NCBI RefSeq assembly: GCF_030686865.1
Contig: NZ_JAQYUS010000004.1
Span: 62,001 to 126,000, forward strand
Reading direction: 5' to 3'
DNA: 64,000 bases
Source: Kaistella sp. SH40-3
GTDB taxonomy: Bacteria; Bacteroidota; Bacteroidia; Flavobacteriales; Weeksellaceae
Below the pieces are notes generated by a model that was not told the origin of the DNA, made no database searches, and was given only the letters and a program-made list of their open reading frames with translations. A program made the translations under genes and the position numbers. Shown here one piece after another: positions 19,518-26,491 of this stretch (the stretch's first letter is position 1; every line of letters starts with the position of its first letter).

Positions 19518-19534
19518 ATAGTAATAATATTAAT

Positions 19535-19571
19535 AATAATCCCTGAAGAAAATTAATCTTCAGGGATTATT
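19535..19571. terminator. Strong hairpin terminator after the MATE gene
   Basis: Perfect 14-base arms (AATAATCCCTGAAG and CTTCAGGGATTATT) enclose a nine-base loop. A short T-rich stretch follows. It isolates the curli locus from upstream transcription. Confidence 0.85.
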
Positions 19572-20132
19572 GTTTAAAGTCTAGGTTTATTCTGATTGCA
19601 GATTTTACAAGGAACGACTGACTTTCATAACTGAATTCTAAATTTTTAACATTACGAAACTCAACTCCTCTTTATAAGTTCTTTTGATATCATGAAGTAA
19701 TTTTCAAAATATTTTTTATTTTTTTCCAAAGTTTTATTGTTTTCATTGGTTTTTAAAATATCTTCATAGGATATTATTATTTATCTGAGAAGTTTTGGTT
19801 TTGGACTTTACCATGGGAGCAGCTTCGTAATGCTTTCATTGTAGATTTAAAAAACATTCAATAATATAAGTTCGTTCTGGTTTTTTTTGGCTAATACAGA
19901 GCCACTTCTTAAATATTACAAATGACTTCTCAATATAATTAGTAGTCAAGGTTTTTAATTCATTTTCTTATAAAAAAACCCGAAACTTTCGTTAAAAGAA
20001 TTGCGTTTTCATCCATAAACGAATTCGAATATTTAAAATAAAACAATGAGACATAATTAGTTTCCTGGTTTCCACTAATTGAAAGCTTCTACAAAAAACA
20101 TTTAAAATCTTCGAAAAGTCCCTTTGATGAAC

Positions 20133-20153
20133 TAATTCGTATTAATCGAATTA
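20133..20153. promoter_or_regulatory. Inverted repeat, possible operator upstream of csgA
   Basis: Seven-base perfect arms TAATTCG and CGAATTA are separated by seven bases, a spacing of about 1.4 helical turns centre to centre that suits a dimeric HTH regulator. It lies 177 bases upstream of the curlin start codon. Confidence 0.35.
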
Positions 20154-20180
20154 ACTTTTAAAGAAATATAAATTACAGTT

Positions 20181-20198
20181 ATTGCGTTTTTTCGCAAT
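20181..20198. promoter_or_regulatory. Short dyad upstream of csgA
   Basis: ATTGCG and CGCAAT arms with a six-T spacer, 132 bases before the curlin ATG. It could be a binding site or a weak hairpin. Confidence 0.3.
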
Positions 20199-20289
20199 TT
20201 TCAAAGGTGTTTTTACTGACTGTTTAATACAATTTGCTGATTTTGAGAATTTCGCTTTTTTGAGCTATTTTTTTTTAAAACTATGAATC

Positions 20290-20297
20290 TACATTTG
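20290..20297 (+). promoter_or_regulatory. Putative -7 promoter element of csgA (TACATTTG)
   Basis: TACATTTG fits TAnnTTTG, 32 bases upstream of the curlin ATG. A TTG lies too far upstream (27 bases) for a typical -33 element, so an activator may be needed. Confidence 0.45.
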
Positions 20298-20329
20298 TAA
20301 GACAAAATAACCAATAAAATTATTTAACC

Positions 20330-21160
20330 ATGAAAAAATTATTTGTAGGTGCTTTCGCACTAATGGCAGTAGCATTCATGAATGCACAAGAGAATCACGA
20401 TGTAACAACACAATGGGGTAAATCCAATGTTGCCAATGTTGACCAACACGGAATGAAAAATTCTAATGGAATTAAGCAATGGGGCGATAAGAATGATGCT
20501 AAAGTTTCCCAATTTGGTAAAGAGAACGAAAGCACAATACTAAGTATGGGTGACAAAAATCACGAAACCGTATACCAAAGTGGAATGAAAAACAGTAACA
20601 ATTCTTCACAAGATGGAGACGGAAATCATGCTACTACAAAACAGTATGGTGAATTTAACAAAGTTACTCAAAAACAGAAAGGAGATGATAACTCTGCATA
20701 TGCACTACAATGCGGTAAACGTAATGTGGCGACTCAAACCCAAACAGGTGATGATAACGATGCAAAATCTGAACAATACGGTAATGATAACAAAGTTAAA
20801 CAAACCCAAAAAGGTAATAGAAATGATGCTGTAGCTTGGCAAAACGGTGTAAGAAATGAAATTTCTCAAAATCAGGACGGTTATAGAAATTATGCTAAAG
20901 CGGAACAATTAGGTTATGATAACGAAATTACTCAGAAACAAAATGGTAGTTACAACAAAGCTTATGCTGACCAAACTGGAGATAGAAACACTATTAGCCA
21001 AACTCAAAACGGAAATTCACATTATACTAAAGACACTCAAATAGGATGTGATAACACAATTAGTGTTTTGCAAGAATCTGGTCATTCTAATGGTGGTTCG
21101 TGCTGTGCACCTCCAATGCCAAAAGAAAGATGTCCAAAAGGTTCAGGAGGTGGTTGTTAA
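20330..21160 (+). CDS. csgA: Major curlin-like amyloid subunit with cysteine-rich tail
   Basis: A secreted functional-amyloid subunit. After a signal peptide (MKKLFVGAFALMAVAFMNAQ) it consists of about 20 consecutive 11-residue units of the form x-Q-x-G-x-x-N-x-x-x-x, for example VTTQWGKSN, TQTGDDNDAKS and NQDGYRNYAKA. This is about twice the length of E. coli CsgA, and each unit should form one strand of a stacked beta-solenoid. Two cysteines lie within units (LQCGKRN and IGCDN), and the 22-residue tail after GGS contains CC, ERC and a final GGGC. Such a tail is not part of classical curlins and may allow disulfide linkage or metal binding. It heads the curli locus and is followed by a strong hairpin. 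Confidence 0.9.
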   Translation: MKKLFVGAFALMAVAFMNAQENHDVTTQWGKSNVANVDQHGMKNSNGIKQWGDKNDAKVSQFGKENESTILSMGDKNHETVYQSGMKNSNNSSQDGDGNHATTKQYGEFNKVTQKQKGDDNSAYALQCGKRNVATQTQTGDDNDAKSEQYGNDNKVKQTQKGNRNDAVAWQNGVRNEISQNQDGYRNYAKAEQLGYDNEITQKQNGSYNKAYADQTGDRNTISQTQNGNSHYTKDTQIGCDNTISVLQESGHSNGGSCCAPPMPKERCPKGSGGGC

Positions 21161-21240: not shown

Positions 21241-21645
21241 ATGAAAAATATATTCTTAATCATTGCGAATCTAGTCAGTTTCTCGATGAATGCACAAAGC
21301 ATTGATTTCAGTCAGATCAACAGTCTAAACGCTTTAAATATAATTAGCACATCGAACAAAGATCTTTCTGAATTCCTTTCAAAAAGTTCAGTTACTCAAT
21401 TAGGAAATAACAACAGCGCTTTGATCTATGACAAAAGCAAAAGAAGTGATTTAATGATTCGGCAAACTGGTGATTTTAATACGACTTTAATGACTAATAC
21501 CAATCCCAACTTGGAAAACAAACAGAAAGTAAATATTGAGGGAGACAATAATTATATAGACATTACTGGTAACAACAGTAATTCTAAAGAAATGCAGATT
21601 AATTTAAAAACGAACGATAAAATGATTTTTGTACGACATTATTAA
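21241..21645 (+). CDS. Minor curlin-like protein (CsgB-like nucleator candidate)
   Basis: A 134-residue secreted protein. The ATG at 21241 (MKNIFLIIANLVSFSMNAQS) gives a good signal peptide; the frame stays open upstream to 21100 but without a plausible start. It has only a few curlin-like units: VTQLGNNNSALI, IRQTGDFNTTLM and the degenerate VNIEGDNNYIDITGNNSNS. The C-terminus is basic and short (KTNDKMIFVRHY), reminiscent of the charged end of E. coli CsgB, which anchors the nucleator to the cell. By position and size it is the likely nucleator for the major curlin, but this is inference. It starts an operon with the secretion genes. Confidence 0.75.
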   Translation: MKNIFLIIANLVSFSMNAQSIDFSQINSLNALNIISTSNKDLSEFLSKSSVTQLGNNNSALIYDKSKRSDLMIRQTGDFNTTLMTNTNPNLENKQKVNIEGDNNYIDITGNNSNSKEMQINLKTNDKMIFVRHY

Positions 21646-21662: not shown

Positions 21663-22400
21663 ATGAAAAATATTAGTAAACGCATCAGTCTTATTTTCCT
21701 CTTTTTCATAGGAATTAATACTAATGCACAGGACTCCAATAAAGTAGGTGCAAAAATTGAAACTCATGATGTTGAAGGAGTATTTAATCTTAAAGCAATT
21801 GCTCAGAATGAAAGTGAAGTTTTCCAGTCACTAAATTATATCTTTCTTGCAGTCAAAAAAGACAAATCAAAAAATATGTCTTCTTCAAAACAAGAAAATA
21901 AATTTACCCTGCTTCCGAAAGAAACAAAAGTTCTTTCGGAAATTTCTATTAATGTGAACAAAGATGATGCACTGAAAGTTTATCTGTTTATTAAAGATGA
22001 AAAAACAGGAAAAGTCATTGCTAAGGATAGTTTAGAGATGAATTCCAAAAATATGAAAAATGCGGTCTCTTATGAGAAAACAACAAATGAAGAAAATATA
22101 ATGATGACAAATTTGATCATTAATGACTCTAAAACAAGAATTGGTGATGAATTCTACAGAAAACTTTATTCTGTTTTAATGCTGAATGATATCAAATTTG
22201 GATTTAGAGTTCGAATTGCAGAATTTCCTACAACAGGAACCAATATGATGCTCCAAGTTTTTGCAAACGATGAAAATATTCTCGCCTTTATGGCCCGGCC
22301 AGACGATGACTATCTAGACGGTGCAGTTCAAGAGACTATTGCAGGTCTTATCGCATATGATCATGATCGCCAGGTAAATGATAAAGGTTTTATTTATTAA
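21663..22400 (+). CDS. csgE: CsgH-CsgE fusion-like curli assembly protein
   Basis: A 245-residue periplasmic protein with signal peptide (1-22). The N-terminal domain (about 30-125) looks like the CsgH curli inhibitor: a beta-sandwich pattern with SLNYIFLAVKKD, then FTLLPKETKVLSEISINVNKDDALKVYLFI and GKVIAKDSLEM. The C-terminal domain (about 150-240) is CsgE: LIINDSKTRIGDEFYRKLYS, FRVRIAEFPTTGTNMMLQVFANDENILAFMARP and VQETIAGLIAYD. CsgE caps the CsgG pore and delivers subunits; CsgH keeps curlin soluble in the periplasm. Joining them would couple chaperoning to delivery. It follows csgB by 17 bases and precedes csgF by 15. The CsgE assignment is firm, the CsgH one is by pattern only. Confidence 0.85.
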   Translation: MKNISKRISLIFLFFIGINTNAQDSNKVGAKIETHDVEGVFNLKAIAQNESEVFQSLNYIFLAVKKDKSKNMSSSKQENKFTLLPKETKVLSEISINVNKDDALKVYLFIKDEKTGKVIAKDSLEMNSKNMKNAVSYEKTTNEENIMMTNLIINDSKTRIGDEFYRKLYSVLMLNDIKFGFRVRIAEFPTTGTNMMLQVFANDENILAFMARPDDDYLDGAVQETIAGLIAYDHDRQVNDKGFIY

Positions 22401-22415
22401 CACAAAAATATTCCT

Positions 22416-22811
22416 ATGAAAACACTTATTTTATATTTAATCTTGGGAATGAGTTTTATAGGCGCACAACAGTTCGTTTATAAACCAATAAATCCAGCCT
22501 TTGGGGGTGATACTTTCAACTACCAATGGCTTTTAAGTTCAGCTGCTTCACAGAATCAATTTAAAGGCGATACCTCACTTTATGATTCTTTAAGTTCTCT
22601 GGACAGTTTTACTGAAAGCCTCAATAGACAGTTATTAAGTCAACTCTCCCAAAAACTCTTCGGAGACCAGTTCGGAGATGGAAATTTAAAACCGGGGAAT
22701 TACACTTTCGGTTCTATGTACGTACAAGTTACACAGTCTGACAAAGGTTTAATAGTAAGAATTTTAAATACATCCACAGGTGAACAATCAGAGATCATAA
22801 TCCCGAACTAA
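22416..22811 (+). CDS. csgF: Curli assembly protein CsgF
   Basis: CsgF binds the outer face of the CsgG pore, forms a second constriction and helps the nucleator surface-attach. The 131-residue product has a signal peptide (MKTLILYLILGMSFIGA) followed by FVYKPINPAFGGDTFNYQWLLSSAASQNQFK, the family signature: the F-x-x-x-NPxFGG segment is the part that inserts into CsgG. The C-terminal half (SLDSFTESLNRQLLSQLSQKLF, then TSTGEQSEIIIPN) matches the CsgF neck and head regions. It lies between csgE and csgG with 15- and 12-base gaps, clearly cotranscribed. Confidence 0.95.
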   Translation: MKTLILYLILGMSFIGAQQFVYKPINPAFGGDTFNYQWLLSSAASQNQFKGDTSLYDSLSSLDSFTESLNRQLLSQLSQKLFGDQFGDGNLKPGNYTFGSMYVQVTQSDKGLIVRILNTSTGEQSEIIIPN

Positions 22812-22823
22812 AGAATTAATATC

Positions 22824-24224
22824 ATGAAAAATTTATTAACAATCAAAATTTTACTCCTGTTCATTTCCTTAGGTATGATAAATAGTTGTGGTACGATGAT
22901 GAACCTACCCGCCGAAGGAGATAAGTCCACCTTGGGAGAGATGACTCCTTATACCAAACAACTAAAAGAATTACCTGCTCCCGAAGAAAAAATAGTCATT
23001 GGAGTTTATAAATTTAAAGACCAAACCGGTCAATATAAAATGGCGGAAAATGGGAGTAACTGGAGCACTGCAATCCCTCAAGGAACCACTTCTATTTTAC
23101 TAAAAGCTTTAGAAGATTCAAAATGGTTTCGCCCTATTGAAAGGGAAAATATTGGAAACCTTTTAAATGAAAGACAAATTATTAGATCTACCAGAAAAGA
23201 ATATGAAGTTGCAAGTGATGGAAAAACAGTGATAAGTGATCAGTTGCCACCACTACTCTACGCCGGAATCCTTTTAGAAGGGGGAATCGTTTCTTACGAT
23301 TCAAATGTAATGACAGGCGGAATTGGTGCAAGATACTTTGGTGTCGGAGGTGGAACTCAGTACCGGCAGGATCGGGTTACGGTTTACTTGCGAGTAGTTT
23401 CTAGCATGACTGGTGAAATTCTTAAAACCATTTACACCTCCAAGAATATTCTTTCAACTAGCGTTAATGGAAGTTTCTTTCGATACATCGATACCGAACG
23501 AATCCTAGAAGCGGAAATGGGGTTTACCCAAAATGAACCCGTAAGTTTAGCGGTTACTCAGGCAATCGAAAAAGCCGTTTACACTTTAATTTTAGAAAGC
23601 ATTGAAGACGGAACATTCCGTATAGAAAAAGTTCATGAAAAAGAAATGAAAGATCTTCTTCAGAAATATCATGCGGAGCAAGAACAAAACACCTATCAAT
23701 TGGTCGGTAATAAGTTTAATGATAAAGAACGTTCCCGAGCATCTGTATTGGCAATGGTTAACGGTGATATAATTAAGGGTGATTATACTGATGCTAAAAT
23801 GAATGTAGGAGGAAGGGTCGCATTCAAATACTTTTTAAATGATCATATCAATGCCGAAGTGAGTGTCGGTTTCGAAACATTAGAAAACAAAGACATCGTT
23901 AAAAATAATTTTATGTATACCGATGTTAATCTTGAATATCTTCTATTGCCAAAATTTAGTTTTTCCCCTTATGCTTACGCTGGTCTGGGATCAATGTATA
24001 ATGGGAAGAATTTTTTAAAATATCAATTTGGCGGTGGCTTAGAATATTTGCTGGGAAACAATCTTGCTCTTAGACTCAACGCTCAATATGATATGGGATT
24101 TGATGATACTTGGGACGAATTTGCCAACGGTAAAAGAAAAGATCAAGCATTTCATATTGGTGTTGGAATCAATTACTATTTCAATCAGGCGAAAAAACTG
24201 CAATCAAAAAAAACAAAACCATGA
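22824..24224 (+). CDS. csgG: Curli secretion channel CsgG with C-terminal barrel-like extension
   Basis: The outer membrane lipoprotein pore for curlin export. A signal peptide ends at lipid-anchored C22 (INSCGTMM). Residues about 45-275 match CsgG closely: YKFKDQTGQYKMAENGSNWSTAIPQG, WFRPIERENIGNLLNERQII, GARYFGVGGGTQYRQDRVTVYLRVV and FFRYIDTERILEAEMGFTQNEPVSLAVTQAIEKAV. The protein has 466 residues, about 190 more than E. coli CsgG. The extra part (about 300-455) has alternating hydrophobic strands and aromatic girdle residues (GRVAFKYFLNDHINAEVSVGF, YAYAGLGSMYNG, FHIGVGINYYFNQ), like a small outer membrane beta-barrel. Its stop overlaps the next start by four bases. Confidence 0.95.
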   Translation: MKNLLTIKILLLFISLGMINSCGTMMNLPAEGDKSTLGEMTPYTKQLKELPAPEEKIVIGVYKFKDQTGQYKMAENGSNWSTAIPQGTTSILLKALEDSKWFRPIERENIGNLLNERQIIRSTRKEYEVASDGKTVISDQLPPLLYAGILLEGGIVSYDSNVMTGGIGARYFGVGGGTQYRQDRVTVYLRVVSSMTGEILKTIYTSKNILSTSVNGSFFRYIDTERILEAEMGFTQNEPVSLAVTQAIEKAVYTLILESIEDGTFRIEKVHEKEMKDLLQKYHAEQEQNTYQLVGNKFNDKERSRASVLAMVNGDIIKGDYTDAKMNVGGRVAFKYFLNDHINAEVSVGFETLENKDIVKNNFMYTDVNLEYLLLPKFSFSPYAYAGLGSMYNGKNFLKYQFGGGLEYLLGNNLALRLNAQYDMGFDDTWDEFANGKRKDQAFHIGVGINYYFNQAKKLQSKKTKP

Positions 24225-25732
24225 AAACTCTATTATATTCTTTATTCGGATCTCTCCTATTTCTCTTCTGCATTTCCTGCAGGGAGGATTTGGTAGGGAA
24301 AGTTACGACAGGAACGATTACAGGAAAAGTTGTTCAGAAAGGGACCAATACGCCAATTCCTAATGTTAAAATCTTTACGTCTCCAACAACTCAAACTATT
24401 TTCACCTCAGCAGACGGAACATTTAAACTGGAAAATATACCAATTGGAGATTATTCTTTAAAAGCAGAACTCACTGGATATCTTTCAACTTTTCAGGGTG
24501 TGAATTTAAAAACAGGACAATCAGTGAGTGTCATTTTTGAATTATCAGATGATGATTCATTAAACTCACCTCCTCCTATTCCTTTATTATTAACTCCAGT
24601 GGATCAGGCAGTTGATTTACCAACTTCTGTGAATTTAACGTGGAACTGTACCGATCCAGATAAAGGAGATTCATTGAAATTGAAATTTAAAATTATTGTC
24701 AAAAACAGTTTGAACAATATTGTCTTTGAAAAAGAAAATATTAAAACTAAATCTTATTTTTTAGATAATTTAATTTTTGGAGTTACTTACTTCTGGCAAG
24801 TTGTTGCAGATGACACTGTGAATACTCCCGTTTACAGTGAGATTCGCCAGTTTAAAGTTTCAGCTACTCCCAATAACAGATTCCATTACGTAAGAAAATC
24901 TGGTTCTAATTATTATATCGTTTCCAGCACAGAAACTGGGGAGAATTTTCAATTGACTCCAAATTCAGTAAACAGTTGGAGGCCTAAGTTGAATAACGAA
25001 GCTGGCTTAATTGCTTTCTTGAGAACTGTTTCCGGCAACACCCAAATTTTCACCACCAAAAAAGATGGTTCAGATTTGAGGCAAGTAACTACAACGCAAG
25101 CGGTACTGGGATATAATTATGAAGATTTAGATTTCAGTTGGAGCACGAACGGAAGTGAACTTTTATATCCCAGTTTTAATAAGTTATATAAAATCAATAA
25201 AGATGGTAGCGGGTTAACTTTAGTTTATACCACAACCGACGGAAATTTTATTACCGAATGTGACTGGAGTAATGATGGATCAAAAATAGCTTTAAAAACA
25301 AATGATGTAAACGGATACAATGCTAAAATATTTGTAATCGATCCTTTAGGAAATATACTGACTACGGTTTTAACTGGTCAATCTGGCGCTGCTGGTGGAT
25401 TAAACTTTTCAGTTACTGGTAATCAACTTCTTTATACAAGAGATATTTCAGGATACGAAAGTGCAAATCACCGTCAACTTGATTCCCGAATTTTGTTATA
25501 TAATTTAACAACTAATACCACAGTAGATCTTTCTTCTTTAAGCGAAAAGATTTTAGGTTCAAATGATTTAGATCCTAGATTTTCCCCTAATGACGCTGAG
25601 ATCATTTTCATGAATACATCTAATGACGGAATTTCTGAAAAAAATATCTACAAAATAACATTGACGGCTGAAGGGACTGGCTATCCAAGAAGATTATTAT
25701 TCAACACAGCAGAAATGCCAGATTGGGAATAA
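24221..25732 (+). CDS. Curli-operon lipoprotein with CarboxypepD_reg, FN3-like and TolB-type propeller domains
   Basis: A 503-residue lipoprotein (lipid-anchored C20 in CISC). Three regions are visible. Residues about 30-108 are a carboxypeptidase-regulatory-like beta-sandwich (TGKVVQKGTNTPIPNVKIF, TSADGTFKLENIPIGDYSL). Residues about 115-215 are fibronectin III-like (LLLTPVDQAVDLPTSVNLTW, TYFWQVVADDTVNTPVYSEIRQF). Residues about 220-500 are TolB/WD40-like propeller repeats (QIFTTKKDGSDLRQVT, FSWSTNGSELLYPSF, CDWSNDGSKIALK, PRFSPNDAEIIFMN). Its ATG overlaps the csgG stop, so it is made with the channel. It has no counterpart in the E. coli system; a role in subunit capture or fibre anchoring is inferred. 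A terminator closes the operon. Confidence 0.85.
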   Translation: MKTLLYSLFGSLLFLFCISCREDLVGKVTTGTITGKVVQKGTNTPIPNVKIFTSPTTQTIFTSADGTFKLENIPIGDYSLKAELTGYLSTFQGVNLKTGQSVSVIFELSDDDSLNSPPPIPLLLTPVDQAVDLPTSVNLTWNCTDPDKGDSLKLKFKIIVKNSLNNIVFEKENIKTKSYFLDNLIFGVTYFWQVVADDTVNTPVYSEIRQFKVSATPNNRFHYVRKSGSNYYIVSSTETGENFQLTPNSVNSWRPKLNNEAGLIAFLRTVSGNTQIFTTKKDGSDLRQVTTTQAVLGYNYEDLDFSWSTNGSELLYPSFNKLYKINKDGSGLTLVYTTTDGNFITECDWSNDGSKIALKTNDVNGYNAKIFVIDPLGNILTTVLTGQSGAAGGLNFSVTGNQLLYTRDISGYESANHRQLDSRILLYNLTTNTTVDLSSLSEKILGSNDLDPRFSPNDAEIIFMNTSNDGISEKNIYKITLTAEGTGYPRRLLFNTAEMPDWE

Positions 25733-25831: not shown

Positions 25832-26491
25832 TCAGTAAACAATTAATTTATTTTCCATAGCGAATTTAACCAGTTTAGCGGAACTGTTAACATTAAATTT
25901 TAACATCATATTTCTTCGGTGTGAGTCGACTGTATGGGAACTAATAAATAATTTTTCTGCGATTTCACGGGAACGCAAACCGTCACAAATTAATAATAAA
26001 ACATCTTTTTCTCTCACCGTTAAATCTTCGAAAGCACCTGTTTTTTTGTCGCTCTCATTCTCTACCCCACAGATGGAATTTAGAAGTTCATTTTTAACAT
26101 CATAATTAACAAATATCTTCCCATCAATAACCTGTTTAATCGCTTCAGAAAATTCAGAACTATCGGTATTACTTCCCAGATATCCTCTTACTCCCTTGTC
26201 GAAAAACTTTTTAATATTTCGCACTTCTGTATTCGTGGAATGAATGATAATCTTTAAACTTGGATTTAATTTCAGAAAATTTTCAATCTGAGCGTTCACA
26301 TCAATGCAACTTAAACCTGTAGAATTAATGATGAGCAGCGTATTATCGGTAAGTATCGATTTTTCAATATCTTCAAAGGAATTAAAAATTTCAATTTTTA
26401 ATTTCTTCGTTACACTATTGTGATTTAGAAAGTACGTCATACAATCCAAATACAATCTTTGGTGATCATAAAGGACAATTTTAGTTTCCAT
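25832..26491 (-). CDS. LuxR-family regulator with degenerate receiver (CsgD-like design)
   Basis: A 219-residue regulator convergent with the curli operon. The receiver fold (about 4-125) is kept, but the acidic pair reads YD (8-9), the phosphoacceptor position holds N56 in TLLIINSTG, and the usual lysine after GYL is lost (RGYLGSNTD). It is therefore unlikely to be controlled by phosphorylation. The C-terminal LuxR HTH is complete (LTVREKDVLLLICDGLRSREIAEKLFISSHTVDSHRRNMMLKF). E. coli CsgD also combines a non-canonical receiver with a LuxR HTH and switches on curli genes. Position and structure make this the likely curli regulator, though sequence similarity to CsgD is only domain-level. Confidence 0.88.
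   Translation of the reverse strand: METKIVLYDHQRLYLDCMTYFLNHNSVTKKLKIEIFNSFEDIEKSILTDNTLLIINSTGLSCIDVNAQIENFLKLNPSLKIIIHSTNTEVRNIKKFFDKGVRGYLGSNTDSSEFSEAIKQVIDGKIFVNYDVKNELLNSICGVENESDKKTGAFEDLTVREKDVLLLICDGLRSREIAEKLFISSHTVDSHRRNMMLKFNVNSSAKLVKFAMENKLIVY

Follow-up and report, generated by a model that had tools for sequence, protein, structure and literature searches.

To our knowledge it is not settled how curlin reaches the CsgE-CsgG exporter from its inhibitor in the periplasm, CsgC or CsgH. CsgC and CsgH block curlin nucleation through charge, with a reported electrostatic pattern in which their pI lies more than 2 above that of curlin, and CsgC-like and CsgH-like proteins have been defined by their cysteine patterns, a CxC motif or a distant pair (PMC4838910). 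CsgE caps CsgG, helps to load curlin and acts as a specificity factor (PMC6050966, PMC6957492); in the E. coli protein R47, W48, W51 and F79 have been examined for a part in curlin binding, in function or in oligomerisation, and the head residue R47 is reported to be invariant (PMC6050966). Clusters in which CsgA/B accompany CsgEFG are among the common types (PMC12822426). An earlier survey gives all Bacteroidetes genera as lacking csgC and describes csgH from Alphaproteobacteria (PMC3521004), and a Bacteroidetes CsgH sub-family is mentioned in PMC4838910, in a main-text section that does not speak of a fusion; the authors of that paper may nevertheless have seen the fused form already. These statements reflect the sections of the papers drawn on here.

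The window, a stretch of 64,000 nucleotides from Kaistella sp. SH40-3, holds a curli operon in which a CsgC/CsgH-like domain and CsgE lie in one polypeptide, and this two-domain architecture is certain. An earlier reading of the sequence alone had described a secreted protein of 245 residues here that joins both domains, unlike E. coli, where CsgC and CsgE are separate; the gene is indeed a single ATG-started open reading frame with a signal-peptide-like start, and both domains are found in it (Table 1). The tightly spaced operon runs from the major curlin through a short curlin-like protein, the fusion, CsgF and CsgG to a lipoprotein-like protein, the fusion gene being separated from its two neighbours by 17 and 15 bases, and a profile search finds one CsgE match in the genome. 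All 80 named loci used for comparison (mostly Chryseobacterium; also Epilithonimonas, Moheibacter, Lutibacter, Aureibaculum, Tenacibaculum and Flavobacterium) have curlin upstream and CsgF, CsgG and the lipoprotein-like protein downstream.

Several features of the surrounding operon were noted in passing. The major curlin carries four cysteines in its end tail and six in the mature protein; we know of no such cysteine tail in E. coli CsgA. The extra beta-barrel-like region of CsgG (23775-24170) has a counterpart in 80 of 80 named loci, and nine such regions round one pore would be an odd arrangement. The roughly 800 bases ahead of the curlin gene (19518-20329) contain a single listed open reading frame of at least 35 residues, 37 residues long, and are probably the regulatory region of the operon. 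The LuxR-type protein beside the operon has no Pfam match to a receiver domain at E<=0.05 and is a candidate functional counterpart of CsgD; a similar protein is present somewhere in 66 of the 80 named loci, and since LuxR proteins are common this co-occurrence with curli loci may be partly due to chance.

Table 1. Features of the curli operon and of the fusion protein, in window coordinates
Feature	Position	Strand	Evidence
CsgC/CsgH-like domain + CsgE fusion, 245 aa, one frame	21663..22400	+	ORF, profiles, model
Signal-peptide-like N-terminus, ~residues 1-22	21663..21728	+	hydrophobic helix 2-19 in model; cleavage site by eye
CsgC/CsgH-like seven-stranded beta-sandwich, residues 28-126	21744..22040	+	profiles, model, fold matches
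Flexible linker, residues 127-150	22041..22112	+	model; longest A-run 5
CsgE domain, residues 151-241	22113..22385	+	profiles, fold
Major curlin (CsgA-like), eight matched curlin-repeat stretches, cysteine-bearing C-terminal tail	20330..21160	+	profiles
Short curlin-like protein, minor subunit, CsgB-like position	21241..21645	+	start codon by eye within longer ORF
CsgF	22416..22811	+	PF10614 E 7.5e-39
CsgG + extra C-terminal outer-membrane beta-barrel-like region (residues 318-449)	22824..24224	+	PF03783 E 2.8e-64, PF13505 E 4.1e-7
Lipoprotein-like protein, carboxypeptidase-regulatory-like domain, same operon	24221..25732	+	profile; similar protein downstream in 80/80 named loci
LuxR-type regulator beside operon; candidate curli regulator	25832..26491	-	PF00196 E 2.9e-17

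The kinship of the N-terminal domain to CsgC and CsgH is proven by fold, sequence and operon taken together. The NCBIfam CsgH profile (NF041112) matches residues 30-113 of the window protein at E 2.9e-7 with 30.4 bits, below its cut-off of 35, NCBIfam CsgC matches at E 6.1e-5 with 23.1 bits, below a cut-off of 75, and Pfam Tafi-CsgC at E 0.048 with 14.2 bits, below a cut-off of 25; Pfam CsgH (PF21112) has no match in the window protein at E<=1. In an alignment of 61 rows, made of the window protein plus 60 sequences from the 80 named loci, 20 near-duplicates having been dropped by eye, NCBIfam CsgH matches 61/61 and NCBIfam CsgC 45/61 at E<=0.001, Tafi-CsgC matches 40/61, and PF21112 a single one of the 61 at E<=0.01. 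When the profile of these rows is compared with solved chains it finds CsgC (2xsk, E 0.0036; 2y2t, E 0.0037), followed by two unrelated chains at E 0.015-0.016. An AlphaFold2 model of the whole protein, built from the same alignment (mean pLDDT 79.8), predicts a seven-stranded immunoglobulin-like sandwich (strands 28-37, 40-49, 55-66, 72-83, 88-97, 103-112 and 118-126) with CsgC and CsgH among its nearest folds. CsgC 2xsk comes first both in Foldseek (E 4.8e-6) and by VIA (Z 12.3, rmsd 2.1, 94 of 95 residues aligned), and CsgH 2n59 fourth in Foldseek and eleventh by VIA (Z 10.9, rmsd 2.8). Many unrelated sandwiches reach Z 10-11.4 by VIA, nearly as high as CsgC, so that the fold by itself is no proof of kinship and the domain might be taken for an unrelated immunoglobulin-like sandwich, a reading that the ranking of CsgC and CsgH in both searches, the NCBIfam CsgH matches in every aligned relative and the place in a curli operon make hardly credible.

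The whole window protein is free of cysteine, as are both domains in 56 of the 61 rows, the other five having one cysteine in the N-terminal domain. By the cysteine rule and the curated cut-offs the domain is neither CsgC nor CsgH proper; it is a member of the CsgC/CsgH superfamily that lacks cysteine. The sequence-only reading had called it CsgH-like from the pattern of the N-terminal part and named residues 25-130 for checking, and these do yield both a sandwich and a CsgH profile match; what has to be loosened is the name, which is approximate given the score below cut-off, the one PF21112 match in 61 and the missing cysteines. Two lysines, K65 and K121, are conserved in 61/61 sequences. 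The net charge of the window sandwich is +1, as is the median of the 61 (range -4 to 8), and its pI of 8.07 exceeds that of its own curlin, 6.34, by 1.7; among the relatives the sandwich pI lies more than 2 above that of curlin in 49/60 (medians 8.2 vs 4.2), 11/60 missing this gap.

Beyond the sandwich the AlphaFold2 model falls under pLDDT 50 at residues 131-148, a linker predicted to be disordered, and its pTM is 0.46, so that the relative placing of the two domains carries no prediction. The linker is followed by a strand, a helix, three strands and a helix. Profile and predicted fold both identify the C-terminal half as CsgE, which bears out the CsgE pattern earlier claimed for the last 95 residues: Pfam CsgE (PF10627) matches residues 149-232 at E 9.5e-7 with 29.5 bits, above the cut-off of 25, and 61/61 aligned sequences at E<=0.01, and the 61-row profile finds the solved chain of CsgE, 2na4, at E 1.7e-8. 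NCBIfam CsgE matches 58/61 at E<=0.001, the window protein being among those not matched. In the VIA comparison of the whole protein the matches listed are filled by the N-terminal domain and CsgE is not among them; with the C-terminal domain modelled separately (pLDDT 80.4), 2na4 is the nearest fold, first in Foldseek (E 3.1e-3) and first by VIA (Z 10.2, rmsd 4.6, 99 residues aligned), the next match having Z 8.0. At the positions of E. coli R47, W48, W51 and F79 the window protein has G192, T193, M196 and Q223, so that the residue reported as invariant in CsgE is a glycine here. Its loop 187-196 holds neither R nor K, one of which is carried there by 59 of the 61 sequences. It may be speculated that part of the curlin binding has passed, in the window species, from the CsgE head to the tethered sandwich; as R or K is kept in the head loop by 59 of the 61 aligned sequences, such a take-over would not be general.

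The fusion is the usual form of CsgE in Flavobacteriales. In a sample of 395 genomes of the phylum CsgE was found in 43 at E<=0.01 (41 above cut-off), of which 16 belong to the order of the window, with one long frame in 14 and a split one in 2. A second sample of 395 genomes, from the order, has CsgE in 56, within a frame of at least 232 residues in 51 and a short one in 5; among 27 order genomes with CsgE that were examined closely, 23 have both domains in one frame, three are split between frames (G495, G968 and G856) and one, G658, has CsgE without the sandwich. Outside the order our own profile of the N-terminal domain (hmmsearch, E<=0.1) finds it in the CsgE frame of 0/25 genomes, a count that covers 25 of the 27 with CsgE, G128 and G264 being left out. 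Two genomes outside the order, G166 and G387, have the sandwich as a separate gene some 4-5 kb from CsgE. Such stand-alone CsgH-like genes, with two cysteines by eye, lie about 4-5 kb from csgE at loci L196 and L197, where the phylum has the unfused arrangement; L044, taken by eye for a CsgH-like protein, was rejected, having no match by Pfam or by the N-terminal domain profile.

In a Pfam scan of ten CsgE proteins from outside the order, six have LysM above cut-off and a seventh just below it. These N-terminal LysM domains occur in other families of the phylum (L027, L030, L033, L039, L041 and L043; L034 just below cut-off) and perhaps tie the cap to peptidoglycan. With either LysM or the sandwich N-terminal to CsgE, the N-terminus of CsgE is seen to be an attachment site for different modules. 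On another reading the sandwich could be no curlin chaperone but mainly position or dock the cap, for example to the extra barrel-like part of CsgG, as LysM may on peptidoglycan, and the shared N-terminal place of the two modules, the occurrence of the extra C-terminal region of CsgG throughout the named loci and the charge of the sandwich in the split genes described below, net negative in 28/28 when the lysines of the run are left out, would all suit such a role. We think this quite improbable, since the nearest solved chains by sequence are CsgC, CsgC is first and CsgH near the top by Z, and K65/K121 and the pI gap in 49 of 60 relatives fit an electrostatic chaperone.

In part of the genus Flavobacterium the two domains are encoded in different frames, in an arrangement that points to recoding and that lay beyond the view of the sequence-only reading, which was confined to the window. 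The genus of G316, identified as Flavobacterium because in the tree alignment G444 and G402 share identical proteins with Flavobacterium araucananum and Flavobacterium sp. 270, has the gene in 60 of 249 genomes and in two frames in 27; with G324 these make up the 28 split genes considered here (L087-L112, L016 and L017). In 28/28 the frame changes within the linker at A10 plus G, a run that is never longer or shorter and whose frame-0 codons are AAA AAA AAG, with CsgE in the -1 frame. Frame 0 meets a stop 0-10 sense codons beyond the run, mostly 2 (TAA in 23, TAG in 4, TGA in 1), and the CsgE part has internal stops in 0/28. In 11 hand-picked pairs of related rows dN/dS is 0.00-0.14 for the CsgE part and 0.07-0.21 for the chaperone part, by which measure both frames appear to be under purifying selection in the pairs tested. 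Such a conserved slippery run with both frames apparently under selection is found in the Flavobacterium split genes and not in the window gene, whose linker has no slippage run. Folding of the sequence after the run gives 28 z-scores that average -0.81 (range -3.7 to 1.7) and no consistent stimulatory stem-loop, so that simple transcriptional slippage, or a shift at A_AAA_AAG without a stimulator, is the likelier mechanism. Comparison among these genes lends good support to the view that slippage at A10 would make a free chaperone and the fusion from one gene in some Flavobacterium.

The split genes also bear on whether the fusion is more than a means of coupling expression, with the two domains working independently like CsgC and CsgE of E. 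coli. The separate genes of G166 and G387, the predicted disorder of the linker and the possible release of a free sandwich from the split genes all agree with independent domains, as would re-initiation of a free CsgE, which may be possible in the 14 of 28 split genes that have candidate start codons (in the linker in 8, at the very beginning of the CsgE domain in 6). In the other 14, however, the CsgE frame offers no ATG, GTG or TTG from the run to the TKT motif, and because no start codon precedes this first conserved motif CsgE seems there to be made only as a fusion; looking further into the CsgE domain, 10 split genes are left without any start codon. Given in addition that the fusion is so prevalent in the order (51/56 long frames; 23/27 on close examination) and that the CsgE half of the broken frames appears to be under purifying selection in the pairs tested, we regard mere expression coupling as possible but unlikely.

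The split state has a history of its own. On a tree of 80 rows, made by a quick method with some long branches, it requires five changes, of which the starred branches force at least four, counts that are blind to gain versus loss; the tree takes in G375 and two split genes of the genus g176 described below, and omits L062, L072, L079, six fused genes without loci and near-duplicates. One group of 31 rows comprises 27 split genes and four fused ones: G375, sister to the main split group, with A11 in frame, L058 and L059 with A10, and L061 with a longest run of 8. G616 is split, has a fused sister and lies outside this group (branch 99*). The fused genes L058, L059 and L064 keep GAA AAA AAA AAG at the same place and in the same phase as the split genes, and a -1 slip in them would lead to a stop after 1-4 residues and thus to a free chaperone. 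Among 31 fused genes (L062, L072 and L079 left out) nine have a linker A-run of at least 9, which is absent in 22. The family of the window itself contains a genus, g176, in which three of seven genomes have CsgE and all three are split with CsgE in the -1 frame (L226, L227 and L232); two, which share linker sequence, have A10 before C and the third A9 before G.

Homopolymers are mutable, and it might be supposed that the A10 run is a phase-variation switch, or that the split genes are pseudogenes or assembly errors. Runs of at least ten A do occur elsewhere, rarely (4 in 88,683 bp of the related loci L186-L192, both strands), and the A11 gene of G375, counted here as fused, is what the 'on' form of a switch would be expected to look like. 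Yet the run is ten long in 28/28 Flavobacterium split genes, with the other 'off' frame (A9 or A12) absent there, the CsgE part is intact in 28/28 with low dN/dS in 11/11 pairs, three in-frame relatives hold the same run in the same phase, and the state is found in one-contig and draft assemblies alike and in a second genus. A switch, decay or error is for these reasons distinctly unlikely, and the A9-A10 run with its -1 frame change is probably programmed slippage, as judged from genome comparison.

We propose a model that most reasonably fits these observations, in which the fusion would act after Sec export as a periplasmic two-domain curli chaperone. The CsgE domain would dock where the CsgG channel opens into the periplasm, as CsgE does in E. 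coli, and would keep the sandwich close to the cap through a flexible tether some 20-24 residues long. Unfolded curlin would be caught by the sandwich, which would block its nucleation and then hand it on to the CsgE cap and to CsgG, so that control of solubility would sit at the pore and not only in the bulk periplasm. Over a large part of Flavobacterium, and in another genus besides, slippage by -1 at the A9-A10 run of the linker would yield the free chaperone from frame 0 and the fusion from the -1 frame; the window gene, having no run, would give the fusion only. Curlin binding, docking on CsgG and hand-over are steps that we infer, and the dual role in curlin solubility and delivery claimed by the sequence-only reading likewise draws on what the CsgC/CsgH and CsgE families do elsewhere. 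In this model the fusion would tether curlin inhibition to the activity of the cap, which K65/K121 and the pI gap of 49/60 relatives support; we count against it the gap of 1.7 in the window and the 11/60 relatives that miss the gap, the small net charge of the sandwich (+1), the negative sandwiches of the split genes, the absence of R47, W48, W51 and F79 from the aligned positions of the window protein and of R or K from its loop 187-196, the lack of cysteine and, for slippage, the candidate start codons in 14 of 28 split genes. By analogy with these families a chaperone function at the pore is likely for the fusion, and the model as a whole, a two-domain curli chaperone at the pore with a slippage-made free form in part of Flavobacterium and one more genus, seems to us reasonably likely. 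That CsgE of Flavobacteriales would be almost only a chaperone-cap fusion, with a programmed -1 slip that sets the ratio of free to pore-bound chaperone in several lineages and arose more than once, and with fused genes that keep the run slipping into a free chaperone, we hold to be quite likely. Were this so, amyloid export would be tuned by recoding; a slippage site that works would be an example of amyloid secretion under the control of recoding.

This natural fusion suggests that inhibitor and cap work next to each other at the pore, and it offers a single-chain tool for studying the hand-over between them. The whole protein is a new architecture built from known parts. A literature search, with preprints and most subscription papers outside its scope, returned in the parts of the sources covered no description of a CsgH-CsgE fusion, a LysM-CsgE fusion or slippage in csgE, and the main text of a survey of frame transitions makes no mention of curli or csg (PMC3711429). 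The csg operons of Bacteroidetes, in the sections of the survey used here (PMC3521004), have the same csgE, csgF and csgG content as the window operon, whereas in Flavobacteriales the inhibitor-like domain sits inside CsgE, a possible reason why the survey found no csgC in Bacteroidetes. With CsgC of E. coli and CsgH of R. palustris the N-terminal domain has in common the seven-stranded sandwich, sequence similarity, a place in the curli operon and, in most relatives, a pI higher than that of curlin; unlike them it is free of cysteine, scores below the curated cut-offs and is fused to CsgE. The window protein resembles E. coli CsgE in a Pfam match above cut-off, in the CsgE fold and in its csgF and csgG neighbours, but adds an N-terminal chaperone-like domain and does not keep the four residues studied in the E. 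coli protein. Finally, A-rich slippery sites at which a -1 frame change gives a short and a long product from one gene are known from dnaX, with its tau and gamma products, and from the recoding of IS elements. The split csgE genes are like these in their A-rich run, their -1 frame and their predicted short and long products; they differ in having no consistent stem and in that the long product would here add a pore cap to a periplasmic chaperone.
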